Source: Paracoccus laeviglucosivorans
GTDB taxonomy: Bacteria > Pseudomonadota > Alphaproteobacteria > Rhodobacterales > Rhodobacteraceae
Length of the DNA: 64,000 nucleotides
Direction of reading: 5' to 3'
Assembly: GCF_900182695.1 (NCBI RefSeq)
Contig: NZ_FXTK01000003.1
Span: forward strand, 1-64,000
Shown here: positions 18,066 through 24,833 of the stretch, in pieces
How positions within the stretch are numbered: position 1 is the first letter of the stretch
Layout of the letters: each line of letters opens with the position of its first letter
Notes under the pieces: generated by a model
What the model was told of the DNA's origin: nothing
What the model saw: the letters and a program-made list of their open reading frames with translations, nothing else
Databases searched by the model: none
Made by a program: the position numbers and the translations under genes

Positions 18066-19319
<1,254 letters not shown>

Positions 19320-19338
19320 TTATTCGCCAGAAAAAAGG

Positions 19339-20901
<1,563 letters not shown>

Positions 20902-20910
20902 GTTCGGAAT

Positions 20911-20992
20911 CCTTCTTACGCTTCAGGGTCCGGGCGCGAACCAAGCTGAGCGGCGGCCCGGAAGACCCGCTCAGCGCAGCGTAAGAAGAAGG
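20911..20992 (-). promoter_or_regulatory. leuA attenuator: Leu-codon segment can pair with the leuA ribosome site
   Basis: On the - strand, CCTTCTTCTTACGCT (20992-20978, the Leu codons of the leader) is complementary to AGCGTAAGAAGG (20922-20911), which contains the leuA Shine-Dalgarno sequence: 11 Watson-Crick pairs plus one G-U. Between them lies a 9-bp hairpin, GCTGAGCGG/CCGCTCAGC (20975-20967 with 20953-20945), holding the leader stop codon. A second possible pairing is GGGTC(TT)CCGGGC with GCCCGGACCC. No U-run follows the last arm, so the layout favours translational attenuation: a ribosome stalled at Leu codons would free the leuA ribosome site. The pairing is seen; the mechanism is inferred. 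Confidence 0.75.
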
Positions 20993-21069
20993 AGACCGCG
21001 GAGGCTCACGGCAAAACGCGCGCTGATTTGCGCGTTCCGGGTAGTGGCGATGTGTCGCGTCCGAGTCAT
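20971..21069 (-). CDS. leuL: leuA leader peptide, 32 aa, leucine-rich
   Basis: ATG at 21069 to TGA at 20971 encodes a 32-residue peptide ending VSLRGLLLLTLR, with six Leu in the last ten residues (CTC, then CTC CTT CTT CTT, then CTG). It is immediately upstream of leuA, as expected of a peptide that senses charged tRNA-Leu. There is no Shine-Dalgarno sequence at a usable distance; a likely -10 element ends 7 bases before the ATG, so transcription could begin at the ATG itself and the leader be translated from a leaderless mRNA. An internal GTG (VSLRG...) is a weaker alternative start. No function is expected beyond regulation. Confidence 0.8.
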   Translation of the reverse strand: MTRTRHIATTRNAQISARFAVSLRGLLLLTLR

Positions 21070-21076
21070 GGCCCGG

Positions 21077-21106
21077 ACTATAGAACCGCCTCCAGCCGAT
21101 TGAAAA
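21077..21106 (-). promoter_or_regulatory. Candidate sigma-70 promoter of the leuA leader
   Basis: On the - strand, TTTTCA (21106-21101) and TATAGT (21082-21077) are separated by 18 bases; the -10 matches the consensus in five of six positions, the -35 in four. The predicted start of transcription, about 7 bases after the -10, falls on the A of the leader-peptide ATG. Confidence 0.55.
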
Positions 21107-21146
21107 GACCGAAATCACCCCGCAGACGAATTTCCGGCATGGAACG

Positions 21147-21177
21147 AAAAGGGGCGGCGCATCCGATGCGCCACCCC
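21147..21177 (-). terminator. Intrinsic terminator of purD
   Basis: Arms GGGGCGGCGCAT (21151-21162) and ATGCGCCACCCC (21166-21177) pair over 12 positions with one C-A mismatch and a CCG loop. On the - strand the stem is followed by TTTT (21150-21147) and a T-rich stretch. It separates purD from the leuA leader promoter. Confidence 0.88.
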
Positions 21178-21211
21178 TGTATTTCTCAGTTCTTCAAATA
21201 CCCATGCGACG

Positions 21212-22474
21212 TTACAACGCGCGCCAACCGATGTCGCGGCGATAGAAACCGCCCGGCCAGTCGATCGCGTCTGCCAGCGCATAGGCGCGGGCATGGGCCT
21301 CGGCCAGCGTCGCGCCACGCCCGGTTGCGGTCAGCACGCGCCCACCGACGGCGACGATCTGACCATCCTTAGCGGCGGTCCCGGCGTGAAACACCATATG
21401 CGACGAATCCTCGGGCAGGGTGTCCAGACCGGCGATCACGCTGCCCTTTTCATAGCTGCCCGGATAGCCATTCGCGGCCAGAACCACGGTCAGCGCATGA
21501 TCATCGGCCCATGTCACCGCCGTTTCAGCCAGCCGCCCTTGCACACATGCAAGGATCAGGTCCAGCGCCTGCGCGCCCAGACGCATCATCAGAACCTGAC
21601 ATTCCGGGTCGCCGAAACGAACGTTGTACTCCACCAGCCGCGCGCGGTCATTCTCGATCATCAGACCGGCATACAGGATGCCCTGGAACGGCGTGCCGCG
21701 CCGCGCCATTTCGGCCACGGTCGGACGCACGATCTCTGCCATGACCTGATCCTGGATGGCCTGTGTCAGGACCGGGGCGGGGGAATAGGCGCCCATGCCG
21801 CCGGTATTTGGACCGGTATCGCCGTCGCCCACGCGCTTGTGGTCCTGCGCCGTGCCAATCGGCAGACAATCGGTGCCGTCGCACAGGATGAAGAAGCTTG
21901 CTTCCTCACCCGCCATGAATTCCTCAATCACCACCTCGGCCCCGGCATCGCCGAACGCGCCGCCAAATGCGTCGTCGATGGCAGCAAGCGCCTCATCCTC
22001 GGTCATCGCGACGGTCACGCCCTTGCCGGCGGCCAAACCATCGGCCTTGACGACGATGGGGGCACCCTGCGCGCGGATATAATCCCGCGCCGGTTCAGCC
22101 GTATCAAAGCGCGCCCAGGCGGCGGTCGGCGCATAGCAGGCGTCGCAAACCTCCTTGGTGAAGCTTTTCGACGCCTCCAGCATCGCCGCAGCTTTCGACG
22201 GGCCAAAGACCGGAATATCCGCGCGGCGCAGATCGTCGGCCACGCCAGCGGCCAATGGCGCCTCGGGACCGACCACCACCAGATCAATGGCATTGTCGGC
22301 GCAAAAGCGGATTACCTCGGTCCCCGACAGAATATCCAGGTCGGCCAGACGGGCCACGGCCTCCATGCCGACATTGCCGGGGGCTGCGAACAGGCGGTCG
22401 CATTTCGGGTTCTGGCGGATGGCCCATGCCAGCGCATGTTCGCGCCCGCCACTGCCAAGGATCAGGATGTTCAT
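21212..22474 (-). CDS. purD: Phosphoribosylamine-glycine ligase (GAR synthetase)
   Basis: A 420-residue ATP-grasp enzyme that joins phosphoribosylamine and glycine in the second step of purine synthesis. It begins [21 protein letters not shown], the standard N-domain, and contains [28 protein letters not shown], and [14 protein letters not shown], all typical of PurD. It is monocistronic, divergent from xseA, and ends at a clear intrinsic terminator. Confidence 0.96.
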
Positions 22475-22573
22475 GCGATTGGCCCCTTGTCGCTGGTTGC
22501 CGCCTTCTAGGAACTGGCCAGCGCCGGATCAATCCCCTTGATCCCACGCAGCGACCGCGCCAAAACCGCAAAT

Positions 22574-24136
22574 ATGGAACTTTTCGAAGACAGCACCCCC
22601 GGCAGCAACGCGCATGAATTCACCGTGTCCGAGATTTCGGGCGCGGTGAAACGTGTCCTCGAAGGCGAATTCGGCCGCGTCCGCGTGCGCGGCGAAATCG
22701 GGCGCGTGTCGCGTCCCTCATCGGGGCATCTTTACTTCGACCTGAAGGACGACCGTTCTGTCATCGCGGCGGTGACATGGAAAGGGCAGGCATCCAAGCT
22801 CTCCACCCGCCCCGAGGAAGGGATCGAGGTCATCGCCACCGGGCGCCTGACCACATTCCCCGGCCAGTCGAAATACCAGCTCATCGTCGATGAGATCGAA
22901 CCTGCGGGCGCGGGCGCGCTGATGATGATGCTGGAAAAACGCCGCAAGGCGCTGGCCGCCGCGGGTCTGTTCGATGACGCCCGCAAACGCCCGCTGCCCT
23001 ATCTGCCACGCGTGATCGGGGTCGTCACCTCGCCCTCGGGCGCGGTGATCCGTGACATCCTGCACCGCCTGCGCGACCGCTTTCCAACCCGCGTGCTGAT
23101 CTGGCCCGTGGCCGTGCAGGGCGAAGGGTGTGCCCCGCAGGTCAGCGCCGCCATTCGCGGCTTCAACGCGCTCACGCCCGACGGCCCGATCCCGCGCCCC
23201 GACCTGATTATCGTCGCGCGCGGAGGCGGCAGCCTTGAAGACCTGTGGGGCTTCAACGAAGAATCCGTGGTCCGCGCCGCTGCCGAAAGCACCATCCCGC
23301 TGATTTCCGCCGTGGGTCACGAAACGGACACGACCCTGATCGACTTCGCCTCGGACCGCCGCGCGCCCACGCCCACCGCCGCCGCCGAGATTGCGGTCCC
23401 CGTCCGCGCCGAACTGGCCGCGCGGCTTTCGGAAAACGCCGCCCGCATGATCCGCGCAAGCCAGACCCGCCAACAGCGTCAGCGCCAACGCCTGACCGAT
23501 CTGGCGCGGGCATTGGGACGTCCGCAGGCGCTGACCGACCCAGCGCGGCAACGCTTCGATCTTTTTGCCGAACGGCTGGAACCCGCGTTGCGCGGCTTCG
23601 TCCGCACCCGGCGCGAACGGTTGAACGCGCTGCCTTTGTCGCTGTCGGTCCTGCGTGCCAGCCTGCGCAACCGGCGCGAACGGCTCGACGATCAGTCCCG
23701 CCGCCTGCCGCTATGCGCCCTGCGCAACCAGACCCGCCAACGCGAACGCCTGGTCAGCCTGGCCGAGCGATTGGTCCGGGCGCGAGGCCGCACATTGGCC
23801 GATGCCCTGCGCGGCATTGCGCGCGACCGCGAACGGACCCAGCTGCTCGCCCGCCGGATGGATGCTGCCGCAAGCCGCCTGCTGCCGCCGCGTCGCGAAA
23901 GGCTGGAACGCATCGACCGCCTGCGCCAGACCCTGGGCTACAAGGAAACGCTGCGCCGGGGCTTTGCCGTCGTGCATGGCCCGACCAGCCTCATCACCAG
24001 TGCAACCGAGGCCGCACAGACTCCGCGTTTCGACATCGAATTTGCCGATGGCCGCATGACAGCACGCCCCGACAACGCACCGCAGAAACCCGCGCGCAAA
24101 GCCGCAGGGCCAAAAGATCAGAAATCGCTCTTCTGA
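22574..24136 (+). CDS. xseA: Exodeoxyribonuclease VII large subunit
   Basis: A 520-residue nuclease subunit that degrades single-stranded DNA to oligonucleotides with XseB. The N-terminal OB-fold domain (FTVSEISGAVKRVLEGEFGRVRVRGEI) is followed by the catalytic region with GVVTSPSGAVIRDIL, RGGGSLEDLWGFN, and SAVGHETDTTL, then a long Arg-rich coiled coil (~residues 280-450) and a short C-terminal domain. The ATG at 22574 is chosen because the conserved sequence starts soon after; an upstream in-frame TTG (22538) lies within an inverted repeat. No strong ribosome site is visible. xseB is not adjacent. Confidence 0.94.
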   Translation: MELFEDSTPGSNAHEFTVSEISGAVKRVLEGEFGRVRVRGEIGRVSRPSSGHLYFDLKDDRSVIAAVTWKGQASKLSTRPEEGIEVIATGRLTTFPGQSKYQLIVDEIEPAGAGALMMMLEKRRKALAAAGLFDDARKRPLPYLPRVIGVVTSPSGAVIRDILHRLRDRFPTRVLIWPVAVQGEGCAPQVSAAIRGFNALTPDGPIPRPDLIIVARGGGSLEDLWGFNEESVVRAAAESTIPLISAVGHETDTTLIDFASDRRAPTPTAAAEIAVPVRAELAARLSENAARMIRASQTRQQRQRQRLTDLARALGRPQALTDPARQRFDLFAERLEPALRGFVRTRRERLNALPLSLSVLRASLRNRRERLDDQSRRLPLCALRNQTRQRERLVSLAERLVRARGRTLADALRGIARDRERTQLLARRMDAAASRLLPPRRERLERIDRLRQTLGYKETLRRGFAVVHGPTSLITSATEAAQTPRFDIEFADGRMTARPDNAPQKPARKAAGPKDQKSLF

Positions 24137-24165
24137 CTTCTTTGTTCTGAAAATACCCTGGGGGT

Positions 24166-24184
24166 CCGGGGGCAGCGCCCCCGG
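24166..24184. repeat. GC-rich palindrome (REP-like) between convergent xseA and eda
   Basis: CCGGGGGC/GCCCCCGG with an AGC loop, inside the context CTGGGGGTCCGGGGGC. Such GGGGTCCGGGGGC-type palindromes are, from memory, scattered between genes in many Rhodobacteraceae genomes. It lies between two convergent stops and may act as a bidirectional terminator, although no T-run flanks it. Only one copy is seen in this window. Confidence 0.6.
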
Positions 24185-24191
24185 CCTTGCC

Positions 24192-24833
24192 TTAACCGCG
24201 CAGGCTTGCGGCTTCGCGGGCGCGTGCCTCAATCGCGGACCAGTTACCAGCGGCGACCTCGGCATCGGGGGAAATCCAGCTGCCGCCGACGCAGATGACA
24301 TTGGGCAGCGACAGATAATCGGGCGCGTTCTGCGGCGTCACGCCGCCGGTGGGACAAAAGCTGACCTGCGGCAGCGGACCTGCCAGAGATTTCAGAGATT
24401 TCGCCCCCCCAGCCGCTTCGGCCGGGAAGAATTTCAGCATCCGATAGCCGAATTCCATGGCCCGCATCACCTCGGATGCGGTGACGGCGCCGGGCAGCAA
24501 CGGCAGGTCTATATCGTCGCAGGCCCGAACCAGCGTTTCGGTCAGGCCGGGGGCCACGGCAAAGCTTGCACCGGCATCGCGCGCGCGTTTCGCGTCATCC
24601 GGCGTCAGGACCGTGCCCGCGCCGACATGCCCGCCCGGAACCTTGGCCATCGCGCGGATCACGTCCAGCGCGGCTGGGGTGCGCAGCGTCACCTCCAGCA
24701 CCGGCAGACCGCCCGCGACCAGCGCGGTCGCAAGGCCCTCGGCGCGGGCGGCGTCGCCCACCACCAGCACCGGGATCACGGGCGCAAGTTCGCATAGCGC
24801 ACGGCTTTTCTGGGACTGGATTTCCGGTGTCAT
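24192..24833 (-). CDS. eda: 2-dehydro-3-deoxyphosphogluconate (KDPG) aldolase
   Basis: A 213-residue class I aldolase that cleaves KDPG to pyruvate and glyceraldehyde 3-phosphate, the last step of the Entner-Doudoroff pathway. The family pattern is clear: PVIPVLVV at the start, GLPVLEVTLRTPAAL with the catalytic Glu, GAGTVLTPDDAKRA, and the Schiff-base lysine in RMLKFFPAEAAGG. CPTGGVTPQNAPDYL binds phosphate. edd is not adjacent. Monocistronic, convergent with xseA. Confidence 0.95.
   Translation of the reverse strand: MTPEIQSQKSRALCELAPVIPVLVVGDAARAEGLATALVAGGLPVLEVTLRTPAALDVIRAMAKVPGGHVGAGTVLTPDDAKRARDAGASFAVAPGLTETLVRACDDIDLPLLPGAVTASEVMRAMEFGYRMLKFFPAEAAGGAKSLKSLAGPLPQVSFCPTGGVTPQNAPDYLSLPNVICVGGSWISPDAEVAAGNWSAIEARAREAASLRG

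Follow-up and report, generated by a model that had tools for sequence, protein, structure and literature searches.

Upstream of leuA in Paracoccus laeviglucosivorans lies a compact structured RNA; we consider it likely to be a translational attenuator that acts in cis, responds to leucine and is built around a pseudoknot. The unit was studied in a 64,000-nucleotide stretch of DNA (hereafter the window), where it occupies the gap between purD (21212-22474) and leuA and is read on the minus strand. Its parts are collected in Table 1. The assignment of the regulated gene is further backed by TIGR00973 (654.1 bits, cut-off 598.7) and by Pfam LeuA_dimer, and the terminator-like hairpin at the upstream edge carries a T-rich tail. 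The wider surroundings (18066-19100 and 22538-24833) hold ordinary neighbours, with mreB on one side and the exonuclease VII large subunit and KDPG/KHG aldolase genes on the other.

Table 1. Parts of the leuA leader unit in the window, in the order of transcription, with the gene that follows.
Feature	Position	Strand	Basis
Terminator-like hairpin 3' of purD, upstream edge of the unit	21150-21178	-	purD identified by profile match
-35-like hexamer TTTTCA	21101-21106	-	consensus scan
-10 hexamer TATAGT, 7 nt 5' of the leader AUG	21077-21082	-	consensus scan
Leader ORF, 32 codons, MTRTRHIATTRNAQISARFAVSLRGLLLLTLR*	20971-21069	-	ORF list, conservation in 106 loci
Leu run, CTC CTT CTT CTT, where stalling is expected	20983-20994	-	coordinates checked
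Base stem, 5' arm: Leu codon 27 (final two bases), the whole of Leu codons 28 and 29, ACG, CT	20978-20990	-	fold, helix and swap tests
Stem1, 5' arm GCTGAGCGG, includes the leader stop TGA (20973-20971)	20967-20975	-	fold, conservation
Pseudoknot, 5' strand CCGGGC, in the stem1 loop	20956-20961	-	conservation, swap test
Stem1, 3' arm CCGCTCAGC	20945-20953	-	fold, conservation
Pseudoknot, 3' strand GCCCGG	20930-20935	-	conservation, swap test
Base stem, 3' arm AGCGTAAGAAGGA, contains the leuA Shine-Dalgarno AAGGA (20914-20910)	20910-20922	-	fold, helix test
leuA, 2-isopropylmalate synthase, regulated gene	19339-20901	-	NCBIfam NF002087, 829 bits (cut-off 729)

The 32-codon leader ending in VSLRGLLLLTLR, which an earlier note on this DNA had picked out, is present as described, and among 451 window ORFs of 20-60 aa it alone has LLLL within its last 14 residues. 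That note recognized the leader itself and overlooked the -10 box just before it. The -10 box is spaced 18 nt from TTTTCA, a hexamer seen again, in this or similar form, in many relatives. Because the box sits 7 nt 5' of the leader AUG, a leaderless leader is to be expected: the RNA in the Paracoccus window would start at or next to the AUG. Among 106 loci of the family Rhodobacteraceae in which the element directly precedes leuA, 87 have a -10-like hexamer 4-10 nt 5' of an in-frame leader ATG, and 83 of those 87 hexamers fall at 6-8 nt (random-position control 9.3%). The same promoter position was found in just 2 of the 41 loci of other alphaproteobacterial families that carry a related hairpin.

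Folding places the leader RNA of the window at a minimum free energy of -75.8 kcal/mol, against -65.05 +/- 4.39 for shuffled sequences (z -2.45; 4/200 shuffles as good), and the Leu arm, when paired as a free duplex with the sequence downstream, gives z -2.87 (1/200 shuffles as good). The pairing between Leu codons and leuA ribosome site proposed in the earlier note exists and is larger than claimed: the base stem has 13 contiguous pairs, 12 Watson-Crick and one G-U, rather than 11 plus a G-U. It thus joins the Leu codon run to the leuA Shine-Dalgarno, a feature of the actinobacterial LEU element discussed below, and leaves 8 nt from AAGGA to the leuA ATG. Nested inside is stem1, the 9-bp hairpin that the note had placed between the arms. 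What escaped that picture is that the leader stop lies within stem1 and that CCGGGC in its loop is complementary to GCCCGG downstream, forming an H-type pseudoknot invisible to nested folding. In the family consensus the stem1 loop reads TGCC...GGCGC, and GGCGC can also pair locally with the TGCC upstream of it, so that a longer hairpin and the pseudoknot may alternate in this loop. Eleven loci have GGTGC instead (hand count); TGCC is kept in 10 of them and the downstream strand is GCACC in 5.

The element is widespread among relatives. Our first search took in 25 genomes of the genus, with full leuA in 24 and a fragment alone in the remaining one (G017), and found leader and stem1 in 24/24 Paracoccus loci, the window among them. 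The exact core TTACGCTGCGCTGAGCGG is present in 23 of these 24; L022 carries a variant, and L009 has one additional base in the stem1 3' arm. A family search then covered 295 genomes of 294 genera, with leuA matched in 290. Upstream DNA was assembled for 112 family loci (24 from the first search, 28 from a second and 60 fetched by LeuA score), which are the better-scoring LeuA matches and no random draw; G220 was skipped for too little upstream DNA, and L059, a short locus, was left out of scripted analyses. The element stands at the head of the leuA unit in all 112, directly 5' of leuA in 106 and ahead of a cupin gene preceding leuA in 6. The 106 loci were anchored on a leader stop within TGAGC and GCTC as its partner, and the family form can be written GCCTCTGAGCGTGCC...GGCGCG...CGCTCAGAGG...GCGCC.

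A covariance model of 73 positions with stem1 as its structure (R1) matches 285 of the 295 family genomes, including G220 and the genome of L059, with one match per genome. Of the 10 genomes missed, four also gave no leuA match and six have leuA (G069, G096, G130, G141, G249, G321). The window's genome has a single match, with no further copy at E <= 1. In a sample of 249 genomes of the phylum the model matched 19, 15 from the family and 4 from the same class. A search of named records with the exact core pattern returned, among the matches listed, at least 119 stretches, at least 113 of them with leuA directly downstream; the rest among those listed comprise one followed by a cupin gene and then leuA, one with leuA 457 nt on and three that run off the locus, and one listed stretch, in an Acidobacteriota bin, is unrelated. 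Paracoccus denitrificans DSM 413 carries the element.

In the six cupin-headed loci (L066, L074, L083, L093, L103, L113) the whole element precedes the cupin gene, one of the cupins being verified by Pfam. Judged by eye, the 3' arm carries the cupin gene's own Shine-Dalgarno in several, for example CGCTAAGGAG in L300. In L299 to L304 the gene between the element and leuA is small, 117-118 aa in five, and it is placed as if the cupin were part of leucine synthesis in these six genomes.

Compared across relatives, as the earlier note had suggested, the Leu codons, the reading frame, the hairpin and the Leu-codon pairing are all conserved, and the pairing covaries; the outcome that the note had named as refuting its reading, a frame or pairing absent from relatives, did not occur. 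Every one of the 106 leaders has at least four Leu within its last 10 codons. Codon -4 is Leu in 106/106, and codons -7, -6 and -5 are Leu in 94, 102 and 100. Within these codons positions 1 and 2 are fixed and the third varies over CTT, CTC, CTG and CTA, with the least variation at codon -4.

Pairing was assessed by a swap test, in which the best helix formed by a locus's own two strands is compared with helices of strands exchanged between species; relatedness remains in this comparison, which carries no tree correction. For the base stem with corrected leuA starts, the 106 loci score 17.81 with their own strands and 13.96 +/- 0.28 when swapped, with 0/200 swaps as good. Across the 81 non-Paracoccus loci, one per genus, the values are 17.89 and 14.36 (0/200), and in Paracoccus alone own strands barely exceed swapped ones (17.54 vs 16.96; 1/200). 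A first run, in which some leuA starts were misassigned (e.g., L007, L008, L040, L043, L054, L085, L107), had given 16.99 vs 13.47 +/- 0.28 (0/100). The family pseudoknot behaves likewise, at 19.67 own and 16.83 +/- 0.29 swapped (0/100). Taken singly against shuffles in that first run, 52/106 base stems and 61/106 pseudoknots reached p <= 0.05. Compensated base stems include CTACTAAGC/GCTTAGTAG, CTGATCCTAAT/ATTAGGATCAG, TTCTTAGTTG/CAACTAAGAA, TCCTTAGC/GCTAAGGA and TCTTGGCT/AGCCAAGA, and the pseudoknot occurs as GGCGC/GCGCC, GGTGC/GCACC and CCGGGC/GCCCGG, among other forms. Free duplex energies between the Leu arm and the downstream stretch were set aside in favour of these anchored helices, as few loci were significant: p <= 0.05 in 11/76, the window being significant, with 29 further loci left out.

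A covariation alignment was made from 28 of the 106 sequences, hand-picked for variety. Stem1 is paired in 96.4% of its cells and the pseudoknot in 74.3%, compared with 30-54% for structures slid along the alignment. The covariation score is 0.149 against 0.084 shuffled (0/500). Among the same 28 sequences two-sided pair changes (5 vs 3.3 shuffled; 54/500) and further pair types (12 vs 10.0 shuffled; 60/500) are not striking.

Judged by eye, stem1 and the adjacent GTGCC are nearly invariant over the 81 non-Paracoccus genera, and because the sequence varies so little we take it to suggest a constraint on stem1 beyond pairing. Such a constraint is what one would look for if stem1 and the pseudoknot bound leucine, another metabolite or a protein, with the leader ORF secondary, and a binding protein was indeed what the authors of the LEU element preferred (PMC1262725). 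That the RNA would act chiefly as such a receptor seems to us very unlikely, since all 106 leaders preserve the Leu run as codons, with varying third positions, and since the anchor used places the leader stop of these loci inside stem1, where a pure aptamer would have no need of it.

Control at the leader is more likely to act on translation than on transcription. The enteric leu operon attenuator (Rfam Leu_leader) combines a leucine-rich leader before leuA with an intrinsic terminator. The element shares the leucine-rich leader peptide with that system and differs in the rest: the earlier statements that no U-run follows the last arm and that the arrangement departs from textbook leu attenuation hold good in the window, and across the family a U-run (at least 5 T in 8 bases) directly follows stem1 in 1/106 loci (L056). 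We therefore rejected an intrinsic terminator as a family-wide feature. Counting anywhere between stem1 and leuA, 8/106 family loci have such a run. A known Rfam family, Leu_leader included, was likewise discarded as a candidate: the window gave no match at E <= 1 over 19000-23000, 20 other loci gave two matches (E 0.54 and 0.79), neither a leu leader, and 6 loci searched at the gathering score gave none.

It might still be transcription that is controlled, much as in the enteric leu operon: a stalled or terminating ribosome would decide whether RNA polymerase halts within the leader, with Rho or some unusual terminator as the means. A leader peptide with an overlapping hairpin is after all the classical equipment for this, T-rich tails at L029 and, by a loose count, at 6/41 loci outside the family mean that other members of the class may have a terminating form, and another Rhodobacterales leader, the cysS motif uORFC-8-2, is described with a U-run (PMC8632094). 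We regard such control as unlikely for the element, since a U-run directly after stem1 occurs in a single locus of 106, whereas the window's purD terminator does have a T-rich tail, and since the 3' base arm in the window extends to the Shine-Dalgarno.

Translational attenuation is favoured by this near-absence of a U-run, in 105/106 loci, together with the computed release of the ribosome site. In erm-type attenuators a leader arm pairs with the Shine-Dalgarno region, and a stalled ribosome frees that region; the stalling requires an antibiotic and the nascent peptide. The Paracoccus element is proposed to differ in using hungry Leu codons and in enclosing a pseudoknot within the base stem. 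Release was computed for positions -16 to -5 before leuA as their probability of being unpaired, with the Leu codons masked or a control stretch masked, the pseudoknot being outside the model. Over 25 Paracoccus loci the mean rises from 0.287 in the free RNA to 0.636 with the Leu codons covered, the control mask giving 0.289, and 22/25 gain more than 0.1; the window itself goes from 0.28 to 0.51, with a control of 0.33. The other 81 genera show a small release (0.567 to 0.619, control 0.581; 30/81 gain more than 0.1). Taking the 106 loci together, masking the Leu codons raises the value more than the control mask does (Wilcoxon p = 2.4e-5), with 52 loci gaining and 12 losing more than 0.1. Cupin-headed loci are mixed, rising in L300, L301 and L302 and not in L299 or L303 (L304 not counted).

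The position of the base-stem arm follows the same division. Of 18 strong arms in Paracoccus, 15 end 12 nt or less from the AUG, versus 9/65 in other genera of the family, where 44/65 end 13-22 nt before the AUG and 12 further away. The ermC-like release advanced in the earlier note therefore has computed backing in Paracoccus and little elsewhere, and its simple form is incomplete because the pseudoknot was overlooked. That interpretation is partly supported, given the missing pseudoknot, the distant arms and small release in most loci outside Paracoccus, and the fact that control at the level of translation is something we infer.

One could also imagine the reverse arrangement, in which ribosomes terminating at the leader stop are passed on to a leuA start held close by in the closed structure, so that the base stem activates instead of repressing. 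The stop codon does lie within the folded core, and for the genera other than Paracoccus the computed fold leaves the ribosome site more than half unpaired to begin with (0.567). Even so, coupling of this kind appears highly improbable to us: the base stem of the window covers the Shine-Dalgarno and would block initiation, and the Leu run would be left without a role.

Translational attenuation remains the reading we favour, most firmly for Paracoccus and more cautiously elsewhere. What the sequences show is the set of parts, conserved and covarying, and, for Paracoccus, a ribosome site that is exposed in the computation; we infer that the leader is translated, that ribosomes stall on it, that the pseudoknot has a role and that control is exerted on translation. 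Transcription would start at or next to the leader AUG and the leader would be read as a leaderless ORF. With ample leucyl-tRNA the ribosome would pass the Leu codons, terminate at the UGA in stem1 and depart; stem1 and the loop pseudoknot would then refold, the base-stem arms would be brought together, and the Leu-codon arm would pair with the leuA Shine-Dalgarno, leaving leuA poorly translated. When leucyl-tRNA is scarce, the ribosome would stall on the Leu run, covering the 5' arm and halting short of stem1; with that arm covered the base stem could not form and leuA would be translated. Outside Paracoccus we assume a block by nearness instead of by direct pairing, because the base stem there usually ends further from the AUG.

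A simpler form extends beyond the family. Among 66 leuA upstream regions from other alphaproteobacterial families (60 fetched and 6 from the first search), 41 carry a related stem1, CCCCTGA.../...TCAGGGG, whose 5' arm holds the leader stop. The search had found 42 such loci at first; one, L273, sat on the wrong hairpin and was dropped from the 41, and it is included in the swap tests. Because the search demanded 7 pairs, only pairs beyond these count as independent, and these are formed in 37, 34 and 33 of the 41 loci, with several pair types. Leu-codon pairing is supported for the 42 loci as a group (15.87 vs swapped 13.85 +/- 0.38; 0/100), for instance TCCTTCGA/TCGAAGGA in L285, 7 nt 5' of the ATG; singly, 13/42 base stems and 3/42 pseudoknots reach p <= 0.05. 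The pseudoknot has no support in these loci outside the family, with 27/100 swaps as good, and we rejected it as a class-wide feature, hand-picked cases in L026 and L028, persuasive as they look, not being counted. Ribosome-site release was also dropped as a class-wide effect, the rise from 0.364 to 0.457 in the 41 loci (control 0.412) not being significant (p = 0.21).

Several of these loci have peculiarities of their own. A T-rich tail follows the stem over the leader stop in 6/41 (L251, L252, L269, L272, L284, L286; a loose count) and in L029, which may represent a transcription-terminating version of the same leader. L272 also has tandem repeats (gggctaaattg..ctagc) between leader and leuA. 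L025 and L242, both of one other family, are without this leader and share a hairpin-like stretch, CACTTCCTATCG or a close form of it, before leuA.

The closest known design is the LEU element of actinobacteria, predicted in 2005 as a Leu-run leader with a pseudoknot, its base stem formed by Leu codons and the leuA Shine-Dalgarno (Seliverstov et al. 2005, PMC1262725). That paper leaned towards a binding protein, citing Leu-codon mutations in Streptomyces whose effects were out of line with classical attenuation, and did not settle whether a stalled ribosome or such a protein is at work (PMC1262725). Compared through the text and legends of that paper, both elements lie upstream of leuA and have the pseudoknot and the base stem of Leu run and Shine-Dalgarno; for the LEU element another hairpin is described that could form inside its base stem as an alternative (PMC1262725), and one is possible in Paracoccus too. 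The LEU element belongs to another phylum. In the Paracoccus leader three codons follow the Leu run and the stop lies inside stem1, whereas the Corynebacterium glutamicum leader LeuL, as given in a passage of PMC8709942, has more residues after its Leu run. Across the family the pseudoknot is supported, and a base stem reaching the Shine-Dalgarno is found only in part outside Paracoccus. The Paracoccus element shares the LEU design, a likeness drawn from description, and we do not file it as a member.

The proposed mechanism has a reported precedent by analogy in the leaderless polycysteine attenuators of Mycobacterium smegmatis, which act on downstream translation (Canestrari et al. 2020, via PMC9031893); M. 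smegmatis cys genes are described as under translation attenuation (PMC13236596). The likeness lies in a leaderless short ORF, contiguous codons of the relevant amino acid and a translational target, the difference in the amino acid, cysteine, and in the phylum, and the passages of PMC9031893 that bear on this type do not mention a pseudoknot. Closer in lineage is Sinorhizobium meliloti trpL, an alphaproteobacterial leader peptide that is leaderless, its AUG being the RNA 5' end; it differs in responding through tryptophan and in working by transcription attenuation with a terminator (PMC7298713). Among the open-access papers listed as matches, judged by titles, the beginnings of abstracts and passages, none was found on an alphaproteobacterial leuA leader. 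The passages of PMC8632094 describe motifs restricted to Rhodobacterales, the cysS leader above included, so that a Rhodobacterales genome was probably analysed there, and its supplements may list a leuA motif.

More tentatively, and on balance somewhat doubtfully, the element could stand for an undescribed family of alphaproteobacterial structured RNAs that senses leucine through ribosome position. Its stop would lie inside the pseudoknot's stem; a stalled ribosome would keep the pseudoknot and free the start, and a terminating ribosome would open it, upon which the base stem would reset. The design would then be convergent with the actinobacterial LEU element, with Leu codons serving as anti-Shine-Dalgarno.

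If our main reading is right, leucine control in Alphaproteobacteria rests partly on one compact RNA without an Rfam match, present in 285/295 of the family genomes sampled and, as a simpler version, at 41/66 leuA loci of other families. Because Paracoccus denitrificans DSM 413, which belongs to a harmless laboratory species that is easy to work with, carries the element, the question of mechanism raised for the LEU element becomes directly testable in that strain. Leu codons that double as an anti-Shine-Dalgarno would make an economical switch, of a kind that gene finders and terminator-based searches for attenuators could miss.
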